Origin: Clostridia bacterium
GTDB lineage: Bacteria > Bacillota > Clostridia > Oscillospirales > QAKW01
Direction: 5' to 3'
DNA length: 64,000 bases
Assembly (NCBI GenBank): GCA_017937065.1
Contig: JAGBEI010000017.1
Location: 1-64,000, forward strand
The translations under genes and the position numbers were made by a program. How positions within the stretch are numbered: the first letter of the stretch is position 1; the number at the start of each line of letters is the position of its first letter. The notes beneath the pieces were generated by a model. The model had not been told where the DNA came from and did no database searches. It was given only the letters and a program-made list of their open reading frames with translations. Shown one piece after another: positions 7,722 to 48,424 of the stretch.

Positions 7722-8687
7722 ATGGGATACGTTTTTCTTATTTTAGGAATTGCTCTTTTTCTGTGGTTTATCTTTTCATGCATTCGCATTGTTCCGCAGG
7801 CAACAGAGTATGTGATTGAATTTCTGGGCAAATACAAGACAACATGGTCGGCGGGCTTTCACGTCAAAATTCCGTTTCTGGAGCGGATTTCGAAAAAGAT
7901 TACGCTCAAGGAAATCGTACTTGATTCGCCGCCTCAGCCCGTCATTACAAAGGATAACGTCACAATGCAGATTGACACCGTTGTGTACTACCGCATTTTT
8001 GACGCAAAGCTGTACACCTACGGCGTTGTAAACCCCGTAAACGCGCTTGAGAACCTCACGGCGACAACACTGCGCAACATCGTCGGCGAGATGGAACTGG
8101 ACGGCACTCTCACCTCGCGTGATTACATCAACGGCAAGATGACCTCAATTTTGGACGAGGCGACGGACAAATGGGGCATGAAGGTCAACCGCGTTGAGCT
8201 GAAAAACATCATTCCGCCGCAGGAAATACAAAATGCGATGGAAAAGCAGATGAAGGCTGAGCGTGACCGCCGCGAAACGCTGCTTCAAGCCGAAGGCCAC
8301 AAGGCTGCGGCAATCACACGCGCCGAGGGTGACAAGCAGGCGGCAATCCTCCAGGCGGAGGGCGAGCGCGACGCGAAAATCGCACGGGCACAGGGTGAGG
8401 CAAAGGCTATCGAGCTTGCAAAGGAGGCGGAGGCAAACGGTCTGCGCGCACTGAAGGCGGCAGGCGCGGACAGCACCGTTTTGGAGCTCAAGCGCTATGA
8501 GGCGCTTATACGTCTGTGCGACGGCAAAGCCGCAAAGGTTGTCATTCCGACAGACCTTGTAAACGCCGCAACAAAGAATATAATGTTCAGCGAGCTTACA
8601 GGGCTTGGCAGCACAACGGATGCCGCGCCCGATGAGCCTGAACCCGCACCGGCAAGAGACGTCTGCTGCGAGCGGTTTGAAAAATAA
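7722..8687 (+). CDS. SPFH/stomatin-like membrane scaffold protein
   Basis: A 321-residue stomatin/prohibitin-family protein. It has one N-terminal transmembrane helix (residues 3-20) and an SPFH core (about 22-190) with the typical VPQATEYVIEFLGKYKTTW start and DNVTMQIDTVVYYRI strand. An alanine- and glutamate-rich coiled coil (about 165-240) follows, built of repeats such as AEGDKQAAI, AEGERDAKI and AQGEAKAIELA. These proteins form oligomeric rings in membrane microdomains and modulate membrane proteases or other membrane proteins. The usual NfeD partner is not adjacent; the gene is monocistronic between its own promoter and terminator. The C-terminus is proline/acid-rich and not conserved. 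Confidence 0.92.
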   Translation: MGYVFLILGIALFLWFIFSCIRIVPQATEYVIEFLGKYKTTWSAGFHVKIPFLERISKKITLKEIVLDSPPQPVITKDNVTMQIDTVVYYRIFDAKLYTYGVVNPVNALENLTATTLRNIVGEMELDGTLTSRDYINGKMTSILDEATDKWGMKVNRVELKNIIPPQEIQNAMEKQMKAERDRRETLLQAEGHKAAAITRAEGDKQAAILQAEGERDAKIARAQGEAKAIELAKEAEANGLRALKAAGADSTVLELKRYEALIRLCDGKAAKVVIPTDLVNAATKNIMFSELTGLGSTTDAAPDEPEPAPARDVCCERFEK

Positions 8688-8699
8688 AGTATTTTGCAT

Positions 8700-8740
8700 A
8701 AAAAAAACAGGTCTTACATCGTAAGACCTGTTTTTTATTT
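8700..8740. terminator. Terminator copy 1 (SPFH / sialate lyase boundary)
   Basis: CAGGTCTTAC (8708-8717), loop ATC, GTAAGACCTG (8721-8730), flanked by A-run and T-run, so it can serve both converging genes. A near-identical copy lies at 11743-11778. Confidence 0.85.
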
Positions 8741-8763
8741 CAAAGCCGGTGTTTTCTCTGCCC

Positions 8764-9660
8764 TTATTCGTTAAAGGGCCAGCCGACAGTTTTCAGGTCT
8801 TTTTCAAGCTCGGCAGCCAGCTTCCCCTCAATTTGTCTCATAGGATATGTTGCCCTGCCTGAATCAAAGCCCATAAGATTCGTCATATACTTCACGGAAG
8901 GTACAACCTTGTGTTTGATGACAACATCAATAACTCTGTTTACCTTTAGCTGGAGCTTTAGGGCTTTGTCCGGTTTACCGTCGTTAAATAACCTGTATAT
9001 TTCTAAAAATTCCGGCAGCATACAGTTGTATGTTGAGCCGATACCCGCATCGGCGCCGGCAGCAAGACCTGCGAGCAAAAGCTCATCAGGCCCGTTGATA
9101 ATATTCATTTCACCGTTGGTTTTATCTTTAAGCTTCATAAGCTGATAAAAATCGTTTGAACTCCATTTGACGCCTGTAACATTATCTATTTTAAAAATTT
9201 CGGCAATCAAATCCGCACTCATATCCTTCTGCGCGGACGGATGGTAATAAATTATAACGGGGATATTTACACTGCAGGCAATAGTTTTATAATAATTATA
9301 AATATCATTTTCATCATAAGCAAAAAATAGGGGCGGCGTGGCAGCAACAGCATCTGCGCCGACCCTTTCGGCATGCTTTGCCAGCTCAATCATTTCATCG
9401 GTATTGACGGCGGCGATATGGCATATTACGGGTTTTCTGCCCCTGACCTCGTCTACTGCAATTTCACACATTTTTTCTCTTTCCGCTTTTGACATCACCA
9501 ACCCCTCGCCGGTACCGCCCAGAATATAAAATCCGTCAGCGCCTTGGCTGAGCTGAAAATCAATAAGTTTTCTTGCCGTGCTTTCATTTACGGTTTTGCC
9601 GTCGTTTTCAAACGGTGTTAAAAGAGCGGGCAATATTCCGTATATCTTGTAATTTGACAT
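8764..9660 (-). CDS. nanA: DapA/NanA-family aldolase, probable N-acetylneuraminate lyase
   Basis: A class I aldolase of the DapA superfamily, 298 residues from the ATG at 9660 (AGGGG precedes it; an upstream in-frame start is rejected because it runs into the neighbouring gene). The (beta/alpha)8 barrel shows YGILPALLTPF at the start, the pyruvate-carboxylate loop GGTGEG near residue 48, the tyrosine segment VIIYYHPSA near 140, and the Schiff-base lysine in TGVKWSS near 168. It is 4 bp downstream of a sialidase-like gene, so sialic-acid cleavage to ManNAc and pyruvate is the likely reaction; other 2-keto acid aldolase activities of the superfamily cannot be excluded. No nanE, nanK or sialate transporter is adjacent. 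Confidence 0.8.
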   Translation of the reverse strand: MSNYKIYGILPALLTPFENDGKTVNESTARKLIDFQLSQGADGFYILGGTGEGLVMSKAEREKMCEIAVDEVRGRKPVICHIAAVNTDEMIELAKHAERVGADAVAATPPLFFAYDENDIYNYYKTIACSVNIPVIIYYHPSAQKDMSADLIAEIFKIDNVTGVKWSSNDFYQLMKLKDKTNGEMNIINGPDELLLAGLAAGADAGIGSTYNCMLPEFLEIYRLFNDGKPDKALKLQLKVNRVIDVVIKHKVVPSVKYMTNLMGFDSGRATYPMRQIEGKLAAELEKDLKTVGWPFNE

Positions 9661-9664
9661 ACGA

Positions 9665-10759
9665 TTATCCCCTGTAATTCCATATTGCTCTGTATATTTT
9701 TGCAGGCTCTTCATTGGATTCATGGGCATAGAAAACAGTCAGAATTTCTCCGCTTTTTAATTCAACCGACGACGGATAGCCTAAATCCCCGCTGCAAAAG
9801 CCATCACACAAAACATTATCCGTATCCCAGGTTTGACCCTCGTCGTGACTGAACATGACCTTTATTCCGTAGGGCTGTTCTCTGTGACCGTAGGCGGCAA
9901 TGAGCATTCCGTCTCTTGTTTTGATAATATGAGACGGAGCACCGCCGCAATCTTCTAAAATCTGATGAGGCTTTGTGAAATTTCTTCCGTTATCATAGGA
10001 CTCTGCCTGGAAAATTGTAAAGAATTTTTTATCCCTGCCTTTACCCTGAACACGGATGTGAACTATTATTTTGCCGCTTGAGGTTTGTATGGCGTGAGGT
10101 TCACAAAAGGTCAAGCCTGTATCGTTTTTAATTTCCCCGATTTTTTGAAAGCTGCCATCGGCATCAATAATAAAACTCTCTATTTCGGTAGAAGCGTCCG
10201 CCGCAGAAAAGGTTCGCCCTACATAAAGCAGTTTACCGTCGCTCAGCGCTGTGGGGCCGTGGGGTGAAGATACCGGTATTCTTTTTATATCCCCGAAGGT
10301 TTTCCCGCAGTCATCGCTGATAACAAAACCGGAACCTAAATATTTGTTTTCATCGAATTTTTTCTCAACGATATCAAGATAAGAATTTATCAAATTTTGT
10401 TCCAAAGCATTTTTTGCATGCTCGCCGACGGCGTTCTTTGCGGAATTTCTCTGAAACGCAACGGAATTGTTAAAGCTTGTAACAATAACGCCGCTGCTGC
10501 CGAAGGTACATATACCCCCGTCCCTGTCATCCAGGGGCGTATCTATAACAGGCGTCGGCAAGGACCAGGTTTCACCCTCGTCGTCGCTGTAAGAAATAAC
10601 GCATTTTCCGAACGGACAAATATGTGCGATTCTGTATCCGGACGCCACCATAGCAAGCCTGCCGTCCTGAAGCCCGGTTACCGTCGGCCAGGCAAAGTAA
10701 TTGAAAATGCTGCTGTCGTTTTTGCAAATAATATCAAGTTTCTTTAAATTTACATTCAT
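9665..10759 (-). CDS. Sialidase-like BNR/Asp-box six-bladed propeller protein
   Basis: A 364-residue protein with four Asp-box motifs: SDDEGETW (58-65), SDDCGKTF (148-155), SYDNGRNF (254-261) and SHDEGQTW (304-311). This spacing is typical of sialidase-type beta-propellers (GH33-like). There is no signal peptide or membrane segment, so the enzyme should be cytoplasmic. That would fit imported sialosides rather than mucin directly, or a non-sialidase BNR enzyme. It is the first gene of a two-gene operon with the NanA-like aldolase and is divergent from an AraC regulator. I cannot place the catalytic Arg triad with certainty; the canonical FRIP motif is not obvious (only a YRI near residue 42). 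Confidence 0.72.
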   Translation of the reverse strand: MNVNLKKLDIICKNDSSIFNYFAWPTVTGLQDGRLAMVASGYRIAHICPFGKCVISYSDDEGETWSLPTPVIDTPLDDRDGGICTFGSSGVIVTSFNNSVAFQRNSAKNAVGEHAKNALEQNLINSYLDIVEKKFDENKYLGSGFVISDDCGKTFGDIKRIPVSSPHGPTALSDGKLLYVGRTFSAADASTEIESFIIDADGSFQKIGEIKNDTGLTFCEPHAIQTSSGKIIVHIRVQGKGRDKKFFTIFQAESYDNGRNFTKPHQILEDCGGAPSHIIKTRDGMLIAAYGHREQPYGIKVMFSHDEGQTWDTDNVLCDGFCSGDLGYPSSVELKSGEILTVFYAHESNEEPAKIYRAIWNYRG

Positions 10760-10878
10760 AATTTCACCTCATTATCATTGTAATTTATACCATATTATGA
10801 TACAATTCATTTATAAAATCAATTATAAAAACAGACGGCTTTTATTTATTGATGTCCTTTAATATAAAAGAGGTATTT

Positions 10879-11766
10879 ATGTTTTTTACCAGTAAAATCA
10901 GCCTTAAAAATACCGATATTAATGTCATTATAACCAAATCTTCCGTTGACGGTTTTGACGCCTTGTCACCCGTTTTTCATTTTCATACAAACTATGAAAT
11001 TCACTATATTATCAGGGGCACCTATTTTTTTGAAATTGAAGGAAGAAAAATACCCGCCAAAGAAAACACCCTGATTATAATTAATCCTAAAATTTATCAT
11101 TATGTATACACCGATTTCAGTCAGCAAAACGAGAAGATTTCTTTTCAGTTATCTCTTTGCTGCAAGGAAACCTCAGAAAATAATTACAATATGATTTATC
11201 AGAAAATTCAAGATTATATTGTTTTAAAAGAAAACATTGTTGAATTTAAGCTGTTAAAGGATATATTTATAAATTCTGCGAAAAACGAAATAGAGGAAAA
11301 AGCCTCTGCGATTTTCACCCTGCTTTTTTTCAGGATAAGAGATATACTCCTGAAAAAATTTGATTACAGTGTTTGCAGCGAAATCGAATATGTAAATAGC
11401 GACGATGATAAATCAAGAATACAAAGTATACTCTCTTATATATTTGAAAATTCCCAGTCGGAAATAAATTTATCCAAAATCGCAGAGCATATAAATCTTT
11501 CGAAAAAACAAACAGAACGCATAATTTTAAAGGAGCTGGGCTGTTCCTTTAAATGTATTTTAAATTCCTTTAAGATACAAAAAGCATTATTTATTTTAAA
11601 CTCCGAAAAAGACAGCGCTTCAAATATTTCGCTTTGCAGGACAGCCGAAAAGGCCGGCTATAACAATTATAATAATTTTTATCTGGAATTTAAAAAGCAG
11701 CTCGGAATTACGCCGACAGAATATATAAAGTCATTTATAAATAAAAAAACGGGTCTTACGATGTAA
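10879..11766 (+). CDS. AraC-family regulator next to the sialic-acid genes
   Basis: A 295-residue regulator. The N-terminal cupin-like sensor (about 1-150) carries FHFHTNYEIHYIIRGTYFF, and the C-terminal double HTH (about 190-288) contains ISKIAEHINLSKKQTERII and ends ...QLGITPTEYIKSF. The ATG at 10879 is chosen over 10849 because AAGAGG precedes it. It is divergent from the sialidase-like operon and is its probable regulator. The gene is visibly more AT-rich than its neighbours, with many AAA, ATT and TAT codons. Its last codons and its stop (11764-11766) lie inside the downstream terminator hairpin, suggesting the 3' end was created at a recombination junction. Confidence 0.88.
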   Translation: MFFTSKISLKNTDINVIITKSSVDGFDALSPVFHFHTNYEIHYIIRGTYFFEIEGRKIPAKENTLIIINPKIYHYVYTDFSQQNEKISFQLSLCCKETSENNYNMIYQKIQDYIVLKENIVEFKLLKDIFINSAKNEIEEKASAIFTLLFFRIRDILLKKFDYSVCSEIEYVNSDDDKSRIQSILSYIFENSQSEINLSKIAEHINLSKKQTERIILKELGCSFKCILNSFKIQKALFILNSEKDSASNISLCRTAEKAGYNNYNNFYLEFKKQLGITPTEYIKSFINKKTGLTM

Positions 11767-11778
11767 GACCCATTTTTT
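11743..11778. terminator. Terminator copy 2 (AraC / rpe boundary)
   Basis: GGGTCTTAC (11751-11759), loop GAT, GTAAGACCC (11763-11771), then TTTTTTATTTCAAAGC. The tail and stem match copy 1 at 8700-8745, with the loop inverted (ATC versus GAT). It overlaps the AraC stop codon and abuts the rpe stop codon. Confidence 0.85.
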
Positions 11779-12442
11779 ATTTCAAAGCAGCCCTCAGCCG
11801 CGCAATATTATCAGCCATACTGTCCCCGCCGAAAACCGATGATGTTCCGCCCACAAAAATGTCTGCACCGGCGGCACGCATTTTCTCCGCGTTTTCAAAG
11901 CTGATATTGCCGTCCACCTCTATTATTTTTCCCGCAAGCCCGTAATTTTCAAGCTCATTTCGCACAGCGCGCACCTTGTCAAAGGAGTGCGGGATTATCC
12001 GCTGACCCGCAAATCCCGGATTTACGCTCATAACCAGCACGCCGTCAATATCATCGTACAAGCCTTCGAGCACCGAAACGGGCGTTTGAGGGTTTAACGC
12101 CGCAAGCGCCAGGGCACCGAGGCTGTGCACACAGTCAAGACACCCCTTTATATCCGCCGTGCTCTCGCAGTGAACGCTTACAAGCTCGCCCGGACGTATA
12201 TCAAACCATTTCAGCTTGTTTTCGGGGTTTACAACCATCAGATGTATGTCAAGAGGAATATCCGTAAGCTGCCTAAGCAGTCTGCAAAAATCCGTACCGA
12301 GCGTGATATTGGGCACAAATTCCCCGTCCATGATATCAACATGCAGATATTCGACGCCCGCTTTTTCAAGCTGCGCAACGGTACTTTCAAGGCGCGTCAA
12401 ATCCGCGCACATCATGGAGGGAGACAGCATCGCCTTATTCAT
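11777..12442 (-). CDS. rpe: Ribulose-phosphate 3-epimerase
   Basis: Interconverts ribulose-5-phosphate and xylulose-5-phosphate in the pentose phosphate pathway. A 221-residue TIM barrel with metal and phosphate motifs HVDIMDGEFVPNITLG, DIHLMV, VLVMSVNPGFAGQ and the closing VDGNIS and VGGTSSVFG. The ATG at 12442 overlaps the upstream ECF gene as ATGAATAA, giving translational coupling. The frame stays open further upstream, but only through the tandem repeat of the ECF gene (FHQTT-like repeats), so that extension is rejected. It is the last gene of the pdxK-ECF-rpe operon. Confidence 0.95.
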   Translation of the reverse strand: MNKAMLSPSMMCADLTRLESTVAQLEKAGVEYLHVDIMDGEFVPNITLGTDFCRLLRQLTDIPLDIHLMVVNPENKLKWFDIRPGELVSVHCESTADIKGCLDCVHSLGALALAALNPQTPVSVLEGLYDDIDGVLVMSVNPGFAGQRIIPHSFDKVRAVRNELENYGLAGKIIEVDGNISFENAEKMRAAGADIFVGGTSSVFGGDSMADNIARLRAALK

Positions 12443-13064
12443 TGCTTTCGCTTCCGTCGTCTGATGAAACGGCACCTGATGAAACGGTATCCGATGAAAC
12501 GTCGTCTGATGAAACGTCGTCTGATGAAACGGCACGGCGTTTACGCCTTCCTGAAATACCGCGCACAGCGCCCGCAAGTACAAGAAACAGCACGGCGCTT
12601 GCCCCTGCCTGAATAGCGTTAAACGGTACGCTGTCAAAAAACGCGCCTGCTGCCGCCGCGCCCAAATCAGAGCCGGAAATCAACAAGAGCACAAGCTCGG
12701 CAACATAATATCCAGCCACCGTGACAACGCCGGCAAGACAAATAAGAATATCCTGCAGAAGCGGATTTTTCGTCAGCTTCATAAGTCCTTTGGCAGTGAG
12801 CACCAGCAGCGATTTAACGATAATCGTCGGTATTATGTATATCGCGCTGCCGAGCGTGAAATCCGCAAGAGCCGCACCTATTGCCGCGGCGGCAACCGCA
12901 TACGGCGTGGGCAGCAGCAGCACCGCAACATAAATTGCGGCGTCGCCTATATGTATATATGCTCCGCCTCCGATGGGCGCCACCGCCCCCGTCAGCGTTG
13001 CCGCAAAGATAATCGCCGCAAACATCGCCCCGTTTGTCAGCATTTTCAGTTTTGTACTCTTCAT
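12435..13064 (-). CDS. ECF transporter S component, probable vitamin B6 type
   Basis: A 209-residue membrane protein with five to six hydrophobic helices between residues 8 and 170. It has the S-component features TNGAMFAAIIFAATL at the start and GGAYIHIGDAAIYVAVLLLP around residues 33-52. S components bind a vitamin and use a shared EcfAAT energising module encoded elsewhere. The directly preceding, abutting gene is a pyridoxal kinase, which points to pyridoxine or a relative (PdxU-like) as substrate; this is contextual inference. The C-terminus is an acidic Ser/Asp tail built by a 15-bp tandem repeat (VSSDD-like units) after a basic GRRKRR stretch, unusual for the family. Confidence 0.82.
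   Translation of the reverse strand: MKSTKLKMLTNGAMFAAIIFAATLTGAVAPIGGGAYIHIGDAAIYVAVLLLPTPYAVAAAAIGAALADFTLGSAIYIIPTIIVKSLLVLTAKGLMKLTKNPLLQDILICLAGVVTVAGYYVAELVLLLISGSDLGAAAAGAFFDSVPFNAIQAGASAVLFLVLAGAVRGISGRRKRRAVSSDDVSSDDVSSDTVSSGAVSSDDGSESNE
12461..12535. repeat. Five tandem 15-bp repeats inside the ECF gene
   Basis: The unit is CTGATGAAACGTCGT and variants: 12461, 12476, 12491, 12506 and 12521 each start one copy. Being a multiple of three, changes in copy number would alter the length of the Ser/Asp tail without shifting frame. Confidence 0.95.
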
Positions 13065-17140: not shown

Positions 17141-17650
17141 CTACATGTCCTCCGTTTTCACAACAGTAATAACCGCCTGCGCGTCATTACCCGCGGCGAT
17201 ATTCGTCAGAATTGTATTATACATATCCATAAATGCATAGTATCTGCGCATATCGCTGTCGGACAGCACGGCATATGCCGCCGCAAAGTACGGTATCGCG
17301 CTCTGCGCCTCGGTCGCCACTTCAAACTCCGTATCCCCCGCGCAAAGCTCGTTTATATCGGACGGGTACGCATAGTACAGAAGCTGCGCACTCCCTTCTC
17401 CCTGAACAATTATATGCCTGTCGTCTGTGCGCTGAAAGCTGCAGTCCGATTTTATAAGACGATACAGGTCGCCAGGCAGCTCGGTCTGCACGCCGCAGGT
17501 GACGGAAAAGCTCTTTTTTATCGGAGATACCGTCGTGGCTATCTGCTTTTGAGCAATATCGTAAAAGCCCGCAAGCACGCCCTTCATATGGTGGTAGTCG
17601 TCCTCTCCGATAAGTCCGCGCACCAAATCGTTTGCCTTGTTTATTGTCAT
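17141..17650 (-). CDS. Head-tail adaptor (P22 gp4-like)
   Basis: A 169-residue, largely helical protein beginning MTINKANDLVRGLIGEDDYH. It sits between the capsid genes and the nozzle gene, where P22-type phages encode the tail accessory factor that extends the portal. The C-terminal AIPYFAAAYAVLSDSDMRRYYAFMD region is typical of such connector proteins. Sequence similarity cannot be proven by eye, so the role is from position and size. A strong hairpin separates it from the upstream decoration gene. Confidence 0.6.
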   Translation of the reverse strand: MTINKANDLVRGLIGEDDYHHMKGVLAGFYDIAQKQIATTVSPIKKSFSVTCGVQTELPGDLYRLIKSDCSFQRTDDRHIIVQGEGSAQLLYYAYPSDINELCAGDTEFEVATEAQSAIPYFAAAYAVLSDSDMRRYYAFMDMYNTILTNIAAGNDAQAVITVVKTEDM

Positions 17651-17672
17651 ATGTACCTCCTTTTAAATCAAA

Positions 17673-17696
17673 GGTGCGGGGCTTTTCCCCCGCACC
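17673..17696 (-). promoter_or_regulatory. Intra-operon GC hairpin after the capsid genes
   Basis: GGTGCGGGG (17673-17681), 6-nt loop, CCCCGCACC (17688-17696). On the minus strand it is followed by TTTGATTT only. It could act as a partial terminator or mRNA stabiliser that raises capsid and decoration protein output over the adaptor and nozzle. Confidence 0.65.
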
Positions 17697-17710
17697 CCCT
17701 TCGGTAAAAA

Positions 17711-18067
17711 TTACGGAAGCTCGATTGCGGCAACCTTTACGTTGACGTCCGCTCCCTTTATGATAACGCAGCCGCGGTTATCCCCCGAAACGTGCATATA
17801 TCTGCCGCTTTCGACGGTGATAACCTTGGTTTCGTTTGCCGAAAGCGTAATCGCAAGGTCATGGACTCCCTGGATACTGTCTCCCGCAAGCACCGTGACT
17901 GCCTTTTCGGCAGCGGCGGCATTTTCAAGTATAATAAGTATTCTGCCGTCCTCTTTTGCCGAAAAGTCAACGGCTGCGCCGTCGGTCGCGCTTACGGCGA
18001 CGGCGGCGGGCATTGTCTTTGCCTCATTGAATTTAAGACTTGTGTTTGTTACAGCTGTTGCAGCCAT
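17711..18067 (-). CDS. Small phage head protein, possible capsid decoration protein
   Basis: A 118-residue acidic beta-rich protein beginning MAATAVTNTSLKFNEAKTMP. It has no enzymatic motif and no membrane segment. It lies 20 bp after the major capsid gene, a common place for head decoration or fibre proteins, and is followed by a hairpin that would favour high expression. The strand-rich pattern (GRILIILENA, KAVTVLAGDS, GRYMHVSGDN) fits a small beta-sandwich. The function is inferred from position. Confidence 0.55.
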   Translation of the reverse strand: MAATAVTNTSLKFNEAKTMPAAVAVSATDGAAVDFSAKEDGRILIILENAAAAEKAVTVLAGDSIQGVHDLAITLSANETKVITVESGRYMHVSGDNRGCVIIKGADVNVKVAAIELP

Positions 18068-18087
18068 ATTGTATTCCTCCCTTTAAA

Positions 18088-18903
18088 TTATTTATGTGCT
18101 TTTATAACGTACAGCTCTTTAGGACGCACGATTTTGCCGCCGTAGACATTGAGACCCTTAACGGCGTCCGCAAAGTAGGACTCGGGGCGGTATGCCTCTG
18201 TCTCGTCGATGCCGCCCGCAAATGCTATTGCGCGGTTGGTTCTGACAAGCATGTAATCGTCTGTCCCGTCGTTGTAGAGGTTGTTGGACATTTTGACCTT
18301 GCAGTTATCGTACATACCTGCCACGCCGCGGCTGATAAGCTCGTCGTTGTTTGTTTTAAGCTCTGTCAGCGCGTCGCGGAAAAGATGATAGAAAAACGGA
18401 GATACCGTAATGCTCACGTTATCCTCGACATCGACATCGTTTTCTCTGAGTACAAGCAGAGCCTCATCTACAAGCGCCTTTGCCTTGGCGGCGGAGTCCA
18501 CCTTGGTGGATTCGGAGCAAAAGTCCGCGTCCTTTGCAAGCGTTGCGACAAAATGGTCGCGCGTTCTTGCCATTTTTGCGGTTGCCTCTCTGATAAGCAC
18601 CTCCATCAGCCCGCTCGTAGACTGTGCCTTGTCTATATCGTCTATCATAAAATTGAATGCCTTTGCCTGGTCGATGTCAAGGTGAATGCTTGTACCCTCC
18701 ACCGCCACGGGCGCCGGAATCCCGTTTCCGGGCACATAGTCGAAAATGTCCGGCGCACCGACGCCTATAATCTTGACGCGGGCGCCCTGCTTTGCCTCAC
18801 CCTCAAACTGCGTCCAGCAGTCCTCAACCAGCCTGCACTTTTTTTCAAGCTCGGTCTGAATAAATTTTGACCAGATAACTGATTTAAAATTTGAAAAAGC
18901 CAT
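18088..18903 (-). CDS. Major capsid protein (P22 coat-like)
   Basis: A 271-residue protein with the features of short P22/HK97-fold coat proteins: N-terminal arm MAFSNFKSVIWSKFIQTELE, a central KAFNFMIDDIDKAQS segment, a spine helix region rich in Ala and Asp (about 140-180), and a C-terminal P-domain-like AYRPESYFADAVKGLNVYG. The upstream gene is a scaffold-like protein and no protease is present, which fits P22-type assembly. It has good codon usage and a strong GGAG site. It is intact. Confidence 0.8.
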   Translation of the reverse strand: MAFSNFKSVIWSKFIQTELEKKCRLVEDCWTQFEGEAKQGARVKIIGVGAPDIFDYVPGNGIPAPVAVEGTSIHLDIDQAKAFNFMIDDIDKAQSTSGLMEVLIREATAKMARTRDHFVATLAKDADFCSESTKVDSAAKAKALVDEALLVLRENDVDVEDNVSITVSPFFYHLFRDALTELKTNNDELISRGVAGMYDNCKVKMSNNLYNDGTDDYMLVRTNRAIAFAGGIDETEAYRPESYFADAVKGLNVYGGKIVRPKELYVIKAHK

Positions 18904-18916
18904 TTTTTACTCTCCT

Positions 18917-19528
18917 TTAAAGTCTTTTTAATGATTTCATCGCCTTCTTGAATATGACGGGATTATCCAAATCACGCGGGGTAAGCCTGTCCAGCTCACG
19001 CGAGCTGAAAAACTCGCCCTGTGCGTCCTCGGATACGCCCACAGAGCCTGTCTCGGGCGGACGCTTGACTAAGCTGTCACTGCTTGCTGCTCTGACGGCG
19101 GAAAATGCCACCTTGGCATCTACGCCGCTCTCAATCAGTCTTAAAAAATCTCCGCCTATGCTCTCCAGGTCCGAAACATTCGGGTCAATCCCGCGTATGG
19201 TTTCAAGGTCCGCGCGCATTTTGCCGTCCACCAGCGCCGAAAGATAGACATCGCTTCGCGTCTTATATTTTTCATACTCTGCCGTTCTTTTTTCCGTGTT
19301 TGACAGTTCGTTTTTCAGACGCTCGATTTCCTTTCTGTACGCCTCGTTTTCAAGCCGCATTTTGCGAAACCCCGAATTTTGCGCAGTACTCTGTCTGCGG
19401 GCGGTGAGCTCCGCTTTTACGGCGGACGCGGGCGTCCCCGCGTCGCCGTCACCGATATTTACGTCAATACTGCCCGCAGGCTCCACGGCTGCCTGCTGTG
19501 CGTCGTTTACCGCATTTGTTTTATTCAT
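18917..19528 (-). CDS. Phage scaffolding-like protein
   Basis: A 203-residue, charged, predominantly helical protein with a coiled coil around residues 50-85 (LENEAYRKEIERLKNELSNT) and a C-terminal basic helix (FKKAMKSLKRL). Immediately precedes the major capsid gene, the position of scaffolds. The ATG at 19528 is preferred over an upstream in-frame start inside the endolysin gene because GGGGAT precedes it and it lies 4 bp after the endolysin stop. Confidence 0.7.
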   Translation of the reverse strand: MNKTNAVNDAQQAAVEPAGSIDVNIGDGDAGTPASAVKAELTARRQSTAQNSGFRKMRLENEAYRKEIERLKNELSNTEKRTAEYEKYKTRSDVYLSALVDGKMRADLETIRGIDPNVSDLESIGGDFLRLIESGVDAKVAFSAVRAASSDSLVKRPPETGSVGVSEDAQGEFFSSRELDRLTPRDLDNPVIFKKAMKSLKRL

Positions 19529-19532
19529 TTGA

Positions 19533-20153
19533 TTATCCCCATCTTTCAAGAAGTCTTTCAATTATCACCGCCGCCTCCTGACGTGTCAGGTTGGCACGCG
19601 GATTGAAATTATTGTTTTCGTCGCCCAGCATTATGCCTGCATCGGCGACCTTTTTAACAGCGTCCTTTGCCCAGCCTGCAATGGACGCATCGTCATTATA
19701 TTTTTCCACTTTTTCCTCCTCTGGTACGGTAAAGCTCTCACTGTAATACGAGCCCTTTTTGTTAGGCACTCCCAGATAACCGCTGGGGTCTGTCGGGTTG
19801 TTGTCCGCGTCGTTGAGCTGAAAATGCAGGTGCACGCCCGTGACATTTCCCGTATCGCCCATTTTGGCAATGACTGTCGTTCGGTTTACCTTTTGCCCCT
19901 CGGTAACCTTAACGCTGCCCTCCTCAAGATGACAGAACAGGTGACGCCGTCCGTCCCCGTCGCCAATCGAAATATATCTGCCCCAGCCGCCCTCATCATA
20001 TGCAATCACTCTCACGGTGCCGTCACATGTGGCATATACACTCCTGTTTTCGGCGGCAAAATCAATGCCGCGGTGTTTATTCTGCCACAGTGCGCCGTCC
20101 TGACCGTAGGTTGCAGTTATAGAGAATTTTCCGGTAACGGGAAGATTGGTCAT
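19533..20153 (-). CDS. M23 (LytM) endolysin with C-terminal SLH domain
   Basis: A 206-residue cytoplasmic cell-wall hydrolase. Residues 1-130 form an M23 metallopeptidase domain with zinc ligands in HRGIDF and HLHF and the middle segment HLFCHLEEGSVKVTEGQ. Residues 150-206 form one S-layer-homology repeat: AGWAKDAVKKVADAGIMLGD, then NPRANLTRQEAAVII. M23 enzymes cut peptide cross-bridges. There is no signal peptide; the overlapping upstream holin (ATGA overlap) would release it. The SLH domain probably targets secondary wall polymer, as it does in the two host surface proteins encoded just beyond the cassette. Confidence 0.85.
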   Translation of the reverse strand: MTNLPVTGKFSITATYGQDGALWQNKHRGIDFAAENRSVYATCDGTVRVIAYDEGGWGRYISIGDGDGRRHLFCHLEEGSVKVTEGQKVNRTTVIAKMGDTGNVTGVHLHFQLNDADNNPTDPSGYLGVPNKKGSYYSESFTVPEEEKVEKYNDDASIAGWAKDAVKKVADAGIMLGDENNNFNPRANLTRQEAAVIIERLLERWG

Positions 20154-20596
20154 TTATCCTCGCCTCCGCCCTTGTCAATATCATCCTTGGCAGTTTTCAT
20201 AAATTTCGCAATCCATGCAGGCAGCGCCTGATTGTTGCAGCGATAGATATTCTCGATTATCGATATGCTCTCGGTAACTGCTATATATACGCAGATAACG
20301 CTTGAAAAGAGCAGGTTTTTCGGTACGCTGAAATTTACCGACGACGCGGCATAAGGTATAAAAACATCCAAAAACGTACCGAATGCGAGCGCCACAAAAA
20401 GCACCACTTTTTTAATAACGCCTTTATACGCCTTTTGACTTGAAAGCCCGCTGCCGTCCATAAGAGAAGCGAGAATACCCGTCACTATGTCGAAAAGCAC
20501 CACGGCGCCGACTATTATATACGCAAGCCCGTACAGCTTGAAATAAGTCAGTATTGCGCCTCCCGCTATCGACAGCAGGTATTTTACATTACTCAT
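20150..20596 (-). CDS. Phage holin (toxin secretion/phage lysis type)
   Basis: A 148-residue membrane protein of the phi-C31/TcdE-like holin family. Helices lie near residues 5-25, 28-48, 65-85 and 92-115, with the family motif VVLFDIVTGILASLMDGSGL and LSSQKAYKGVIKKV. The C-terminus is charged. The ATG at 20596 is chosen because AAAGGAAT precedes it; an upstream start would add 28 poorly fitting residues. It overlaps the endolysin start by 4 bp. Confidence 0.85.
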   Translation of the reverse strand: MSNVKYLLSIAGGAILTYFKLYGLAYIIVGAVVLFDIVTGILASLMDGSGLSSQKAYKGVIKKVVLFVALAFGTFLDVFIPYAASSVNFSVPKNLLFSSVICVYIAVTESISIIENIYRCNNQALPAWIAKFMKTAKDDIDKGGGEDK

Positions 20597-20682
20597 GATT
20601 ATTCCTTTCACAATATTATATATATTTATAGCTGCGGCATACTGCCGCCCTGACATTAATCCGAAAACACCGGCGGACAAAG

Positions 20683-21618
20683 CTATGACTGTAAATTCTG
20701 TATCAGCTTATCTACATATGCCTTTGTGGCAATCTCCGAGTACTGTGCGCGCGTACCGCAAAACACCTGCTTTGCAAAATCGGACACTTCGTCTATGGTG
20801 AGATTTGTATGACCGTAATATGCGAATTTTTCATACATGTCTGCACTGCCGGCAGCCCAGTCTGTGTCATACCACTGCATAATCGGGCCGGAATCGCTCC
20901 AGATAAAGTACATATAATATCCGGAGCGAATGGTATAGCGTATTTCCATTTGTCCCAGCAGGGCCGACTCTGCGTTGTACAGCTTGAACAGATAAATACA
21001 TTTTGTCCCCGATCCCGATGTATCGGTAAGCCCGTGCTCCTCTATTGCCGCAATCAGCTCCTCCTCGGTATCGTACACACACGGAGCGGGTGTTCCGTAG
21101 TCCTCAAGCGCAGCTCCGTCGTATATCGGCTCTATCTCGACATTTTGCAAAATTTTCAGAACTCCGTTTTCACGGCAGATAAGCGTACTGTCGGACGTCG
21201 GCTGCGCGGCGACATCCGCAATTACTCTGTCGCTGCTGCTTTCAAGCAAACCGCTTTTAATAGCGTCCGCCTCATCCTTGCTGTATGTCTGCTCCTTTGT
21301 ATACACGTCTAAGGCGTCTGCCTTCTGCGTCAGCTTGCTGTCCGTCTCGGTCTTCGAATATACATCCGAGGCTTTGGCAAAGGTGCCGTCTGCCTCACTT
21401 TTATTATATGTTTCCTCTTTTTTATAGACACTCTCGGAGGGTGCCGACGCATTTACGGCGTCTGTCAGCTCGTTTATTTTCGGTATCAGCACCTGTCTTG
21501 GCACATAATCCATAAATTCTTTCATTTCCTGCGCCGTTTTACCCGGTACATCCGGCTGATTTACATGAAATCTGTTCTGATTAAAAAGCTCGGTATCATC
21601 AATCTTGGTTACCGACAT
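20683..21618 (-). CDS. Phage tail fibre/needle-like protein with YSKTETD repeats
   Basis: A 311-residue protein. After a short N-terminal region, residues 65-120 carry degenerate repeats of the form V/TYxKxExDxxxxxKAD (for example VYSKTETDSKLTQKAD), a pattern typical of trimeric phage fibres. The rest is a beta-rich C-terminal domain ending in LIQNLQS. It overlaps the portal gene by 20 bp and precedes the holin. It is the only obvious candidate for host attachment in the cassette. It could alternatively be a central needle-like plug; no such gene is otherwise visible. Confidence 0.6.
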   Translation of the reverse strand: MSVTKIDDTELFNQNRFHVNQPDVPGKTAQEMKEFMDYVPRQVLIPKINELTDAVNASAPSESVYKKEETYNKSEADGTFAKASDVYSKTETDSKLTQKADALDVYTKEQTYSKDEADAIKSGLLESSSDRVIADVAAQPTSDSTLICRENGVLKILQNVEIEPIYDGAALEDYGTPAPCVYDTEEELIAAIEEHGLTDTSGSGTKCIYLFKLYNAESALLGQMEIRYTIRSGYYMYFIWSDSGPIMQWYDTDWAAGSADMYEKFAYYGHTNLTIDEVSDFAKQVFCGTRAQYSEIATKAYVDKLIQNLQS

Positions 21619-23092
21619 TCTGTTTACCTCCTCTGCTCTTTATAATCTGCTCCAGCTTGGACTTGGGCACCGAGCTTTCGTCGTCCAGTGCCGAAACATA
21701 TTCCTCAAACGATATATGACCCATGCTGAAAAGCTGGCTCAGTGACTGCTCTCTGGCATATTTTGAAAAAGGATTGGTGCTTGAAACATCAACACGGATT
21801 TGCGGCTCCAAAAGGTCAAGCTCTCCTGCCGAAACGCTTGTGCCGTCCGGCAGGCAAATACCGCCGGGGTTATACACCACCCACTGCCTGTACCAAATCC
21901 GCGCGATGTCCTCGGTCAGCCGTCTGAACGCCGCCGTCTGCTCGTTAAGCGGAATTGCCGCCTGGTCGCGCACGGCAATTATAGCGGTGCCCGACGCCTT
22001 TGTCGGGTCTATGCTGCCAAGGGACGCGTCCCCCGCGCCCGCAAGCTGACGTGAGGTTATAAGCAGCTCCTCACTGAGCGCCTTTGCATCCGGCGCCATA
22101 GGCGACGGAGTGAGATAGTTTACGGCGTCCTTAACCGAATTTACGCTTCCGCCCTCCACCTCAATGGCTGTTCCGACCTCTGTCAGCGCTTTCGGGTTTG
22201 CAATCCTGTCCCCCGCATATATGAGCCGTGAATACGCCGTCAGCTTTGCGTTGACAATACGCCTTGCAAGGTTGCGGTTTATCTCTATCTGGTTGGGTAT
22301 CAGCGGCGTCACCTCGCCCGCACCGCGAAAGCTGCCGCGGCGTCTGGAGCTGACAAGTGCCGCCACGGGATAGCAGTCCAGACCTTCAATGACCTGCTCC
22401 GGCTGATAAACAACGGATTTTGAGGAGCGCGAAAAGTGCAGGTTTCCGTCGGTAAGCGTTAATTTCAAAAGACTTACACATTTGTCCCTGCCGTAATCCT
22501 CGCTGTCCTCATCAGGCATTATCGTCATGGCAATTTCCTTTGAAATGCCGTTGTTTACCGCCTCGCGGCGAATATCCGCCACCGGGCGGCGCTCCCTTAT
22601 AATTATGTAAGGCTGAGACGAAATATCCGGGTTGGATTCGTCACCCAGGAACACGTCGGTACGCTCCAGCACCTGGCAGGAGCCGGCACCGTCATAAAAA
22701 TACACAAAGCTGTCGCCCGCTATCATCGACGCCTTGACTACGTCCCAGCATTTTGTATCCATCTTCAGCCGCTCCCACTGCTGAGCGGCAAGCCGTGACA
22801 GCTGGGCGCACACGCGCTGCATACGCTCCTTTGCAAGCGGCGCGGAAAAGCTGATGCTCATATCGTTCATAGCTACCATTGCGGTTTTGTACTTTACAAG
22901 CGGCGCTATAAAATTATAAACGGGCAGCTCTTCATTCTGGCTTTCCAGCCCGTACCACTGATCGCCCTCATAAAAGCGATAGGCGCGCACTGTCTGCTCC
23001 TCTATCCCCATTTTTGCATGAACTTCAAGGCACGACTCGTATTCGCTCCAAATCTGTGCCGCATTTACAACGGTGTCGTACAGTCTGCTCAT
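21599..23092 (-). CDS. Phage portal protein
   Basis: A 497-residue protein with the layout of portal proteins: N-terminal helical region, YRFYEGDQWYGLESQNEELP (about 37-56), a central wing, and a C-terminal QAAIPLNEQTAAFRRLTEDI helix. It follows the large terminase with one small gene between, and its ATG overlaps the stop of that gene as ATGA. It would form the dodecameric DNA channel. No truncation is visible. Confidence 0.82.
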   Translation of the reverse strand: MSRLYDTVVNAAQIWSEYESCLEVHAKMGIEEQTVRAYRFYEGDQWYGLESQNEELPVYNFIAPLVKYKTAMVAMNDMSISFSAPLAKERMQRVCAQLSRLAAQQWERLKMDTKCWDVVKASMIAGDSFVYFYDGAGSCQVLERTDVFLGDESNPDISSQPYIIIRERRPVADIRREAVNNGISKEIAMTIMPDEDSEDYGRDKCVSLLKLTLTDGNLHFSRSSKSVVYQPEQVIEGLDCYPVAALVSSRRRGSFRGAGEVTPLIPNQIEINRNLARRIVNAKLTAYSRLIYAGDRIANPKALTEVGTAIEVEGGSVNSVKDAVNYLTPSPMAPDAKALSEELLITSRQLAGAGDASLGSIDPTKASGTAIIAVRDQAAIPLNEQTAAFRRLTEDIARIWYRQWVVYNPGGICLPDGTSVSAGELDLLEPQIRVDVSSTNPFSKYAREQSLSQLFSMGHISFEEYVSALDDESSVPKSKLEQIIKSRGGKQNVGNQD

Positions 23093-23283
23093 CTGCCGTC
23101 ACCGCCCTTTTTCGGCAGGTCTGAGCTTTTGCCGTAAGCCTCAATATTCTGCAAAAGGATATTGAGCCTGTCAAGCTCTGTTTCATGACTGCGGCGTCCG
23201 CTGTTTTTATGTTTATGCATAAGGCGTGCAAAACATACTGCCGCGGCGGCAATAACAGCCGCAATTAAAATCAGTAATTCCAT
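23089..23283 (-). CDS. Small single-helix membrane protein in phage cassette
   Basis: A 64-residue protein with one N-terminal transmembrane helix (residues 2-20) and a basic, hydrophilic C-terminal half ending PKKGGDGR. The predicted N-out, C-in topology and size resemble small phage spanin-like or antiholin-like proteins, but nothing specific is recognisable. It lies between terminase (10-bp gap) and portal (4-bp overlap). Confidence 0.6.
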   Translation of the reverse strand: MELLILIAAVIAAAAVCFARLMHKHKNSGRRSHETELDRLNILLQNIEAYGKSSDLPKKGGDGR

Positions 23284-23292
23284 TATTCCTCC

Positions 23293-24651
23293 TCAAATTA
23301 TTATCATCTGCTTTTCGCTGTCAAAGGGGGACAGCTGCTTTTCAAAGCTGAAACCGTATTTATAAGCGGCGGGCGCCTTTTCGGCGGGACGCGGCTGACC
23401 CGCGATAAAATAGCGCAGCGCGTCGGGCGCATGGGTCAGCTCGTGCGGCACCCCGGCGCTGTCGGCGGGATTGTGGCTGTCGCACTGCAAAAGCGACATT
23501 GCGCGTATAAGATTCTGACAGCTGTCAAAAATCCGCAGTCTTGCAGTCTGCCCGCCCGCTTCATCGTCTGTAACGTGCAGCCATTCCTTAAGCGCCATCC
23601 ACCCTGCGACACGCGCTGACATCACGCGGGTCAGGCTTACTCCGTTTTCAAGGAAAAGACCTGCAATGCTCTTTCCGCTGTCCTTCTGTCTGCTCCAGAG
23701 GTCGGGCGGTGCGAAAACCGCATAAATTTCATCGCCTTTGCAAAGCTCCTTTATCCGCTCTGCCGCCTGCGACACAATAAGCCCGTCTCCTCCGTTGTCC
23801 TTTCCCTCGTAAACCTCGGCTGTAACATAAGCGCGCCCGCCGTCGTCCACAGCGATTTTATATGCCGCCAGCATGTCAAGCCCGTAGTCAAGCGAAACAT
23901 ACCTGCGCCACTCACGCGGCACCTCAAAGGCACAAAGCACGTGCACGCTCCTGTCAAACTCTTCAAAAAACCTGCCGTCCGTTATATCCCAGCTGCCGTT
24001 TAGCAGCGCGCGCCTGTCCCTGTCGCTCAGCGAGCGCAGACGCTTTACATACTGCGGGTCGCTTTTCATGAGAAAGCGGTTATCGGTCACTCTTGCGGGG
24101 ATAAACATCCGCGTCAGCTCCCCCGCCTTTGTCACGGTGTCCGGCGCACAGCAGTCGATAAAACGCTTTTTTACCCAGCTGTGACCGATACCACCGGGAT
24201 TTGTCGAGCTTTTTACATGCTTGGGATACCCGTTTACTCCGCGGCAGCGTGAGAGCATGTAGAGGTACATGCTTTCGGTAAAGTGCGTCAGCTCGTCAAA
24301 GCGAATGACGTCGTACTCCGCCGACTGGTACCTGTACACATCCTCCTCGCTGTCACAGTACGCAAAATCTATCAGCGAGCCGTTCACAAACGTCCCCGTG
24401 TGGTCGGCTTTGCGATAGCTGTATACTGACTGCGGATAAAGTGCAAGCGATACCCTGATAAGCGATTTTTCAAGCTCCGGCAGTGTTCGGCGGAATATTA
24501 TCTGTTTTGAGCGCGGATATTTCATCGCGTATAAAAAAGCGTCGATAATCTGCCCGTAGCTTTTGCCTCCGCCAGCCGCGCCGCCGTAAAGCACCTCAAA
24601 CGCCTGCGCGTCGCAGAATTTCTTCTGGCGCTGCGTCACGGTAATATCCAT
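23293..24651 (-). CDS. Phage terminase large subunit
   Basis: The DNA packaging motor, 452 residues. The ATPase domain has Walker A GGAAGGGKS (23-31) and Walker B with the catalytic carboxylate in VIRFDELTHF (about 113-122), followed by SSTNPGG. The nuclease domain starts near RRYVSLDYGLDMLAAYKI, and the final acidic motif is HAPDALRYFI near the C-terminus. All expected motifs are intact, so packaging activity is plausible. Its ATG overlaps the upstream small gene by one base (TGATG). Confidence 0.92.
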   Translation of the reverse strand: MDITVTQRQKKFCDAQAFEVLYGGAAGGGKSYGQIIDAFLYAMKYPRSKQIIFRRTLPELEKSLIRVSLALYPQSVYSYRKADHTGTFVNGSLIDFAYCDSEEDVYRYQSAEYDVIRFDELTHFTESMYLYMLSRCRGVNGYPKHVKSSTNPGGIGHSWVKKRFIDCCAPDTVTKAGELTRMFIPARVTDNRFLMKSDPQYVKRLRSLSDRDRRALLNGSWDITDGRFFEEFDRSVHVLCAFEVPREWRRYVSLDYGLDMLAAYKIAVDDGGRAYVTAEVYEGKDNGGDGLIVSQAAERIKELCKGDEIYAVFAPPDLWSRQKDSGKSIAGLFLENGVSLTRVMSARVAGWMALKEWLHVTDDEAGGQTARLRIFDSCQNLIRAMSLLQCDSHNPADSAGVPHELTHAPDALRYFIAGQPRPAEKAPAAYKYGFSFEKQLSPFDSEKQMIII

Positions 24652-25008: not shown

Positions 25009-26400
25009 TTATGACAGATACAGCATACGGTAAACCGACAGAATTTTTGCCACCTGAGCACGGGTTGCCGTGTCCTTGGGAGCAAAGTTGGAGCCGTCGA
25101 TTCCGTCTATGATAAGAGACTGCTGACAAAGGTAAACCGCTTCCTTTGCAAAATTGGAAATCTTTGCGTCATCAGCAAAGACTTTCTTATCCGCTGCTTT
25201 CTGAATAGGAATTCCGATATGCTCTGAATACCTGACAAGCATAGTGCAAATCTGCTCGCGCGTTACGCTTCTGAGCGGGTCAAAATCCGTCGGCGACATG
25301 CCGTTTACGATTTTGTTTTCGGCAGCCCAGGCAACAGCGCCCGTATACCATTTGCCGGCAGGCACGTCGGCAAAGCCCGAATGTGCGTTCTTGTCGCATT
25401 CCACGCCCGATATATTGGCAAGCACCTGAACAAACATAGCTCTGTTCATATCGCCGCCCGGGTCAAAGGCGTCCTTGGCAGTACCGTTAAACAAGCCGTA
25501 GCTTACGGCGTAGTCCACATACTGCGTATACCAGCGACCCGTATCCACGTCCTTGAATATCCCGGAGGTGTCTAAAAGCACGTTACCCACAACGGTCGTC
25601 GGCACCGTGACCTCCTTGCCCATATAGTGCAGGGTATAGTAGTTTTTACCCACGTTCCACGGGAATTCTTCCTGCTCATAATCAATTACAAAAAAGTAAT
25701 CATTGAGCATGATGATACCCTCGGACTTGAGCGGGCGGAAATACTCGACCGTTCCGTCCGTATACTCTATTTCAAGCAATAAATAAAGGTAGGAATACGT
25801 CTCATCGTACTCAAAAAAGTACGAGCCGCCCTCCCCGCGGTTTTCATCAAGGTATGTATACTTGAAAGGATTTTCCACAACCGTTATAAATCTTACGGGA
25901 CTTTTAATGACTGAGACGGGAACCGTAACGGAAACGCCGCGGTAGGTTATTTCATAGCTGTTGTCACCGCCCACCGTCCACGGCTTTTCAAACTGGGTAT
26001 CGGTAATCTCTATCATTTCGCCGTCAATATGCAGAACATCAAAAATCATATCTATAAGCTCATCGCCGTCGATATCCTCGATATTTTCGACATTCTCCAG
26101 CTCTGTAATTTTATCCGCCAGGCTGTAATCGACAAAGCCGCCGTCATCAAAATGAATACGCATTTTCATATATAAAAGCGAAAACACAGGATTATAGTAA
26201 TAAAACGCATTATTTTTTGCGTCCGTCATTTCCATTCCGACCGATATATCGTTTTCAATATATTCGTAGCCGTTTTCAAGAATTTCTATCGATTCCACGC
26301 CTTTTTTGCCGGCTGCGGCAAGCGCAGGCACCGACGGCATAACGGCGCACGTCATCACCAAGATAACTATTACAGCAATAAATCTTCTTAATTTTTTCAC
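25009..26400 (-). CDS. SLH-anchored surface protein 1
   Basis: A 463-residue secreted protein: signal peptide MKKLRRFIAVIVILVMT..., cleavage near ALAAAG (about 30), two Ig-like repeats (about 35-275), and three C-terminal SLH repeats (about 285-460) that bind the secondary cell-wall polymer. The repeats share W-VG-NSY...Y-GV-V-VPV segments. The GTG start at 26400 follows AAGGGGAT. It is a tandem paralogue of the next gene, with separate promoter and terminator. It might be a minor S-layer or adhesion protein; no enzymatic domain is visible. Confidence 0.9.
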   Translation of the reverse strand: MKKLRRFIAVIVILVMTCAVMPSVPALAAAGKKGVESIEILENGYEYIENDISVGMEMTDAKNNAFYYYNPVFSLLYMKMRIHFDDGGFVDYSLADKITELENVENIEDIDGDELIDMIFDVLHIDGEMIEITDTQFEKPWTVGGDNSYEITYRGVSVTVPVSVIKSPVRFITVVENPFKYTYLDENRGEGGSYFFEYDETYSYLYLLLEIEYTDGTVEYFRPLKSEGIIMLNDYFFVIDYEQEEFPWNVGKNYYTLHYMGKEVTVPTTVVGNVLLDTSGIFKDVDTGRWYTQYVDYAVSYGLFNGTAKDAFDPGGDMNRAMFVQVLANISGVECDKNAHSGFADVPAGKWYTGAVAWAAENKIVNGMSPTDFDPLRSVTREQICTMLVRYSEHIGIPIQKAADKKVFADDAKISNFAKEAVYLCQQSLIIDGIDGSNFAPKDTATRAQVAKILSVYRMLYLS

Positions 26401-26430
26401 AAATTCATCCCCTTTTTTAATATATTTTTG

Positions 26431-26459
26431 ATTATATCACACAAAATCATATTTTGCAA
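26431..26459 (-). promoter_or_regulatory. Promoter for SLH protein 1
   Basis: Minus strand TTGCAA (26454-26459), 17-bp spacer, TATAAT (26431-26436). Confidence 0.75.
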
Positions 26460-26466
26460 CATAAAT

Positions 26467-26506
26467 CAATAAAAATATAACAGGCTGCACAATATGTGCA
26501 GCCTGT
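26467..26506 (-). terminator. Terminator after SLH protein 2
   Basis: ACAGGCTGCACA (26480-26491) pairs with TGTGCAGCCTGT (26495-26506), loop ATA; on the minus strand TATATTTTT follows. Confidence 0.85.
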
Positions 26507-26517
26507 AAATACTCAAA

Positions 26518-28245: not shown

Positions 28246-28272
28246 ATTTTTATCCTCCTTTTGATTTAATCG

Positions 28273-28301
28273 ATTGTAGCATAAAATACGTCGGTTTTCA
28301 A
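28273..28301 (-). promoter_or_regulatory. Promoter for SLH protein 2
   Basis: Minus strand TTGAAA (28296-28301), 17-bp spacer, TACAAT (28273-28278). Confidence 0.75.
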
Positions 28302-28408
28302 GCAAACTATAAATTTAGTAATAAAAATCGCTCGCCATTTTTCGCCTTGTATCGAAACCGCTTTAAAGGTTTGTCGGATAATGTCGTGCTAAAAATATGC
28401 ATTTGCTA

Positions 28409-28448: not shown

Positions 28449-28524
<76 letters not shown>

Positions 28525-29883: not shown

Positions 29884-29910
29884 TATCTTTTTCGATGCAA
29901 CTTACCACTT

Positions 29911-29940
29911 CGGAACGAGTTACGCTCGTTCCGATTTTTT
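29911..29940 (+). terminator. Terminator after orphan membrane protein
   Basis: CGGAACGAG, 5-nt loop, CTCGTTCCG, then ATTTTTTATTT. Confidence 0.9.
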
Positions 29941-48385: not shown

Positions 48386-48424
48386 AAAAAATCGGAACGA
48401 CATACGCCGTTCCGATTTTTATTT
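48386..48424 (-). terminator. Terminator after GH123-like gene
   Basis: AAAAATCGGAACG, 8-nt loop, CGTTCCGATTTTT; A-run gives a minus-strand U-tract. Confidence 0.9.

Follow-up and report, generated by a model that had tools for sequence, protein, structure and literature searches.

Little is understood of how bacteria acquire small blocks of genes that lack any mobile element of their own. Some integrative elements target and duplicate the 3' end of a gene, many of them restoring that end and duplicating a stretch of dyad symmetry, and class C group II introns target stem-loops. Stem-loops or REP palindromes have also been reported as targets of insertion sequences (PMC1525189). The closest precedent for the locus described here, in the form in which it is cited in PMC3031569 and PMC1643837, is insertion with long target duplication, known from the restriction-modification genes of Helicobacter pylori (Nobusato, Uchiyama, Ohashi, Kobayashi 2000). 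Shared with that precedent, as cited, are a gene block without a transposase and direct repeats longer than ordinary target duplications (here 46 bases, 40 of them identical), but the cargo here is a catabolic cassette and not a restriction-modification system, and the target is a putative bidirectional terminator between convergent genes. The cited cases have one copy of the target in an insert-free relative, whereas here an empty site was seen only for a second occurrence of the cassette, in the genome G244. The duplicated 3' end of a target gene resembles that of integrative elements, but the insert has no integrase and there is no constant core between hosts. A stem-loop target is likewise shared with class C introns and, on the account in PMC1525189, with certain insertion sequences, but in this case the whole hairpin is duplicated, and the insert yielded no recognisable intron, reverse transcriptase or transposase. 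A search of titles and abstract openings, thin on subscription journals, found no description of terminator duplication upon gene insertion. The best explanation of the locus, and one that we consider somewhat probable, is that the cassette was inserted at the terminator of two convergent genes with a target duplication of about 46 bp.

The window, by which we mean the whole stretch of 64,000 nucleotides that was analysed, contains a direct repeat, D3, at 8701-8746 and 11743-11788, with 40 of 46 positions identical, no gaps, and a start-to-start distance of 3042 bases. A sequence-only reading had pointed to this repeat and to the roughly 3 kb of aldolase, sialidase-like and AraC genes that it brackets, and both the repeat and the gene families, the latter from Pfam matches, proved to be as it described. 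The features, from left to right, are these:

7722-8687, + strand: SPFH/Band 7 protein gene, left flank, directed towards T1 (PF01145, 1.7e-35)
8701-8746, no strand: T1, terminator copy 1 of repeat D3, hairpin at 8702-8736, loop ATC
8735-8746, - strand: rpe-end fragment in T1, outside any gene, 12 bases corresponding to the last three rpe codons and the stop (from the sequence, with the rpe end compared with 20 homologues)
8764-9660, - strand: NAL/DHDPS-type, N-acetylneuraminate-lyase-like aldolase (PF00701, 4.3e-66)
9665-10759, - strand: BNR-repeat protein of a sialidase-like fold family, without FRIP (PF13088, BNR_2, 1.7e-15; alignment of 16 members)
10879-11766, + strand: AraC-type regulator, stop codon inside the T2 hairpin (PF12833, PF02311)
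11743-11788, no strand: T2, terminator copy 2 of repeat D3, hairpin at 11744-11778, loop GAT
11777-12442, - strand: rpe-type epimerase, right flank, directed towards T2 (TIGR01163, 219.3 bits, above the cut-off of 212.6)

T1 and T2 each stand between two convergent genes, SPFH and aldolase in the case of T1, AraC and rpe in that of T2. Both copies have a stable stem followed by a T run on either strand, with predicted folds of -20.4 (+) and -20.6 (-) kcal/mol for T1 and -18.0 (+) and -20.6 (-) kcal/mol for T2 (z from -5.7 to -6.2 over both copies and strands), and they probably act as bidirectional intrinsic terminators. The six differences between them comprise the three loop bases, the outermost base of the stem (G to A), and both members of one stem pair (A-T to G-C). 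The loops are reverse complements of one another, as had been noted beforehand, and one hairpin could have been flipped; loops also vary among the terminator copies of the genomes G244, G068 and G784 discussed below, so nothing is drawn from this inversion.

T2 overlaps the end of rpe, with the codons A-L-K-stop forming positions 11777-11788. Among 20 homologues several C-termini are similar (e.g., NIKKLRAAIR and NINRLRDALK) and others are different, and by this comparison the A-L-K-stop end looks native to rpe, from which it follows that T1 holds a fragment of the rpe end. The suggestion that copy 1 contains a duplicated rpe 3' end is thereby upheld, and the copying of a flank that includes rpe codons idle in T1 supports insertion with duplication.

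Of the flanking genes, SPFH is common across the order, with matches at E <= 1e-60 in 202 of 295 genomes. The rpe gene at 11777-12442 is a second copy, 37% identical to the other at G000:C3:73455-74075, and most members of the host family hold only the latter kind. Beyond rpe, positions 12455-12547 form a 15-base tandem repeat of GATGAAACG units at the 3' end of an ECF-transporter-like gene, where it encodes a Ser-Asp-rich tail.

How unusual the resemblance of T1 and T2 is was assessed in a sample of the same genome (839,591 bases, 44%), from which 195 hairpins beside A or T runs were collected. Pairs were scored on one side only, over 27 bases outward from the arm, which avoids counting the palindrome twice. 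T1 and T2 scored 24/27, and the maximum among 18,340 distant terminator pairs was 22; the only sampled pair above T1-T2 belongs to a tandem lipoprotein gene duplication (26/27). That T1 and T2 are more alike than every distant pair sampled supports insertion with duplication. At least seven core-stem bases were common to 3 of 384 near pairs (less than 10 kb apart) versus 43 of 18,531 distant pairs, and the three near pairs were T1/T2, the tandem lipoprotein duplication at C5, and a trivial GC-rich match. A general sharing of stems by neighbouring terminators was accordingly rejected, on these 3 of 384 near pairs together with 2 of 135 in the G244 sample and 5 of 278 across a further 104 sequences, where the pairs concerned were two brackets in G244 and three trivial cases. 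The lipoprotein region, L208:5733-8077 (G000:C5), has three paralogues in tandem; nearly identical terminators follow two of them, an ordinary tandem duplication in which the terminator was copied too.

The stem GGTCTTAC with a 3-base loop, allowing up to two mismatches, occurs at exactly two sites in the 1.91 Mb genome, T1 and T2. A third hairpin, 3' of dapB at G000:C4:6820, has the arm AGGTCTTAC but a 4-base loop and no CAAAGC flank; the T1/T2 stem is therefore not wholly unique, which weighs against the best explanation. A genome-wide terminator family as the cause could be rejected in part: the 3-base-loop form is found only twice, yet there is one more hairpin with the same arm. It is this third hairpin, together with scores of up to 22/27 between distant pairs, that would favour two independent terminators being alike by chance or through membership of a loose family. 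We consider such a coincidence very unlikely, given that 24/27 lies above every distant pair, that the common flank is coding in only one copy, and that a second bracketed cassette, that of G244, has single-copy empty sites in two relatives. Elsewhere in the window, terminators at 29910-29934 and 48387-48420 have TCGGAACG in common, a core that appears again in the sample at L206:18272 and L218:8226; these look like a small dispersed terminator family.

The insert itself has no transposase or integrase (ORF list and Pfam scan), and no intron or reverse transcriptase was recognised in it. Terminal inverted repeats are absent from its ends, where the sole long inverted match is the palindromic terminator itself. 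Its base composition is odd, most of all in the AraC gene, which the sequence-only reading had described as AT-rich with its stop in copy 2 and which has a GC content of 30.5%, rank 2 of 312 sampled ORFs of at least 200 aa (mean 48.4%); the aldolase gene has 43.0% (rank 42) and the BNR gene 44.2% (rank 54) in the same sample. A possible upstream TTG start of the AraC gene is located at 10849.

Close relatives of the aldolase (E <= 1e-80) are rare: of 394 genomes in the order only 9 have one, the present genome counted, and the 11 other members of the host family have none at that threshold. This patchy occurrence, with the odd base composition of the insert, also supports insertion with duplication. 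Aldolase, BNR and adjoining AraC genes were found together in four further genomes, G244, G784, G313 and G191, and the aldolase-BNR pair also in G155. Their recurrence as a set in unrelated surroundings indicates that the unit behaves as a cassette. The present AraC protein is of a different subtype from those of the other cassettes in an alignment of seven AraC proteins, and in the same alignment a shorter end was usual, so that a truncation of AraC by insertion in G244 was rejected. None of the relatives examined has the SPFH-rpe junction. Among 80 rpe relatives in GTDB contigs, retained from 292, none has the SPFH, aldolase and BNR genes beside rpe, and viral contigs gave no confirmed rpe relative. 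Plasmids and phages were considered as carriers of the BNR gene and rejected, the 12 plasmid records and one phage record giving partial matches only, at less than 60% identity.

The events proposed for the present locus would begin with SPFH and rpe as convergent genes sharing one bidirectional intrinsic terminator. The cassette would have entered there, with aldolase and BNR genes leftward and a divergent AraC gene rightward, and about 46 bp, comprising the hairpin and the last 12 rpe bases, would have been duplicated, duplication and insertion probably being a single event. The AraC gene would now terminate within T2, and through the duplication on entry each new convergent pair (SPFH/aldolase and AraC/rpe) would have a terminator of its own; later both hairpins would have been retained as the loop and one stem pair diverged. 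No enzyme encoded by the cassette would have been used, the most likely route being illegitimate recombination with long target duplication, and the hairpin itself may attract insertions. The proposal of the sequence-only reading, that the module arrived by recombination or duplication at a terminator, is thus supported in part: insertion with terminator duplication is the best reading, on the 24/27 score and the G244 empty sites, and the support does not extend to any particular mechanism of recombination.

An identical end product would result if the cassette had landed beside a single terminator that was copied to the other side later, by ectopic copying or gene conversion, and kept as a stop signal for the new convergent pair. 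The paired stem change, which indicates that both hairpins are under selection, is in keeping with such copying, but the copied stretch includes 12 rpe bases that are useless in T1, and two separate events would be required, twice over if the G244 cassette arose in the same way; later copying therefore seems to us quite unlikely.

Insertion with duplication, the preferred explanation, finds its independent case in G244, a genome of another family of the same order. Its cassette has a U32 peptidase gene on one side and a convergent gene on the other, with terminators having the AGCCACGGC stem at both ends, and this stem (3-base loop, up to two mismatches) is found nowhere else in G244. The U32 gene is present in two congeners, G068 and G784, with 97% and 95% protein identity, and was not found in a third (75% complete genome). 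In the stretch examined, G068 and G784 have no cassette at the U32 site and one such terminator each, and this pairing of a twin-bracketed cassette with single-terminator empty sites supports insertion with duplication. The bases to the right of the G244 T1 (TTTTGTGTTG) are those in G068 and the bases to the left of its T2 (AAAAAGAGAG) are those in G784, flank matches consistent with duplication of a target some 40-45 bp long. Scored over 44 bases, the G244 pair matches at 31, which does no better than equal the best in the G244 sample, so that it is the stem and the empty sites that carry the case here. To the right of the terminator G244, G068 and G784 each have different genes, from which it appears that the history of the site is complex, and this too counts against the best explanation. 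These differing genes (L184:2891-4075 and L185:4352-7120) include one of GH2 type in G784, and the U32 site looks like a spot of frequent gene turnover.

The evidence from G244 also bears on site-specific integration, in which a recombinase acting in trans would use the rpe 3' end and terminator as its attachment site, and the repeat copies would be attL and attR. Restoration of a gene 3' end and duplication of a dyad-symmetric stretch would both agree with this, but the insert has no integrase gene, and G244 duplicates a wholly different sequence (the AGCCACGGC rather than the GGTCTTAC stem), so that the cassette carries no fixed attachment site. The cassettes of G784, G313 and G191 likewise point to other sites without a common core sequence, and we regard site-specific integration as highly improbable. 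No conserved cassette ends were seen by eye in the flanks compared.

Twin terminators are no rule of the cassette. They are present in two of five full cassettes (the present locus and G244), a count that leaves out G778, in which the contig is truncated, and in two of the three sited between convergent genes. Twin stems are absent from the G784 and G313 cassettes, and in G191 the cassette lies between convergent genes with two unlike terminators; these three cassettes, G191 with its convergent neighbours among them, weigh against the best explanation. G784 has its own cassette at a different place from the U32 site, 71.5% identical in DNA to that of G244. A second bracket was found in G244, where twin CTCCCGCAG terminators surround one BNR-like gene (L238, G244:C26:58790-60007, - strand) between a uracil-DNA-glycosylase-like gene and a convergent gene, and it is possibly a further case of the same kind. 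The flanking gene sought as a marker of the corresponding empty site was absent from the stretch of G784 that was inspected. Such a bracket would fit a wider reading in which bidirectional terminators are entry points for the transposase-free gain of small catabolic cassettes, the terminator being duplicated on entry and insulating both sides. As a general rule we consider this rather unlikely, and against it stands G191, whose cassette has convergent neighbours but two dissimilar terminators. If true, entry by terminator copying would account for the acceptance of new genes between convergent ones, since transcription would not read through into the neighbours, and it would leave a mark that can be searched for in pairs of genomes, namely twin terminators in one and a single copy at the empty site in the other.

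The function of the cassette is less clearly sialic acid catabolism than the name sialic-acid module, given to it by the sequence-only reading, would suggest. The nearest solved relatives of the aldolase are N-acetylneuraminate lyases, and it has GGTGE at the position of GSTGE in the aligned lyases; its scores are below the curated NanA cut-offs (236.1 versus 281 for NF003164 and 203.1 versus 382 for TIGR00683). In sialidases the arginine of the FRIP motif binds the sialic acid carboxylate. The BNR protein has YFAWP aligned with the YFRIP of sialidase B, so that the FRIP expected of an exo-sialidase is missing, and the YFxWP positions are invariant across 16 members of the BNR family. With YFxWP in place of FRIP and the lyase below the NanA cut-offs, a role in sialic acid use is doubtful from the sequences, and involvement with a different acid sugar is equally likely. 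The cassette resembles nan clusters, which serve sialic acid use, in pairing a BNR protein with a relative of N-acetylneuraminate lyase, but its three genes include no sialic-acid transporter, kinase or epimerase, and it differs from them again in the lack of FRIP and in the low scores of its lyase.

Also found in the window were prophage structural genes at 17144-24651 (- strand), starting about 3 kb to the right of pdxK and including those for a major head protein, portal and large terminase, as well as a peptidase/endolysin-like gene, with no integrase among the ten proteins scanned. Two consecutive S-layer-homology proteins are encoded at 25012-28305 (- strand), adjoining a tRNA at 28449-28521.
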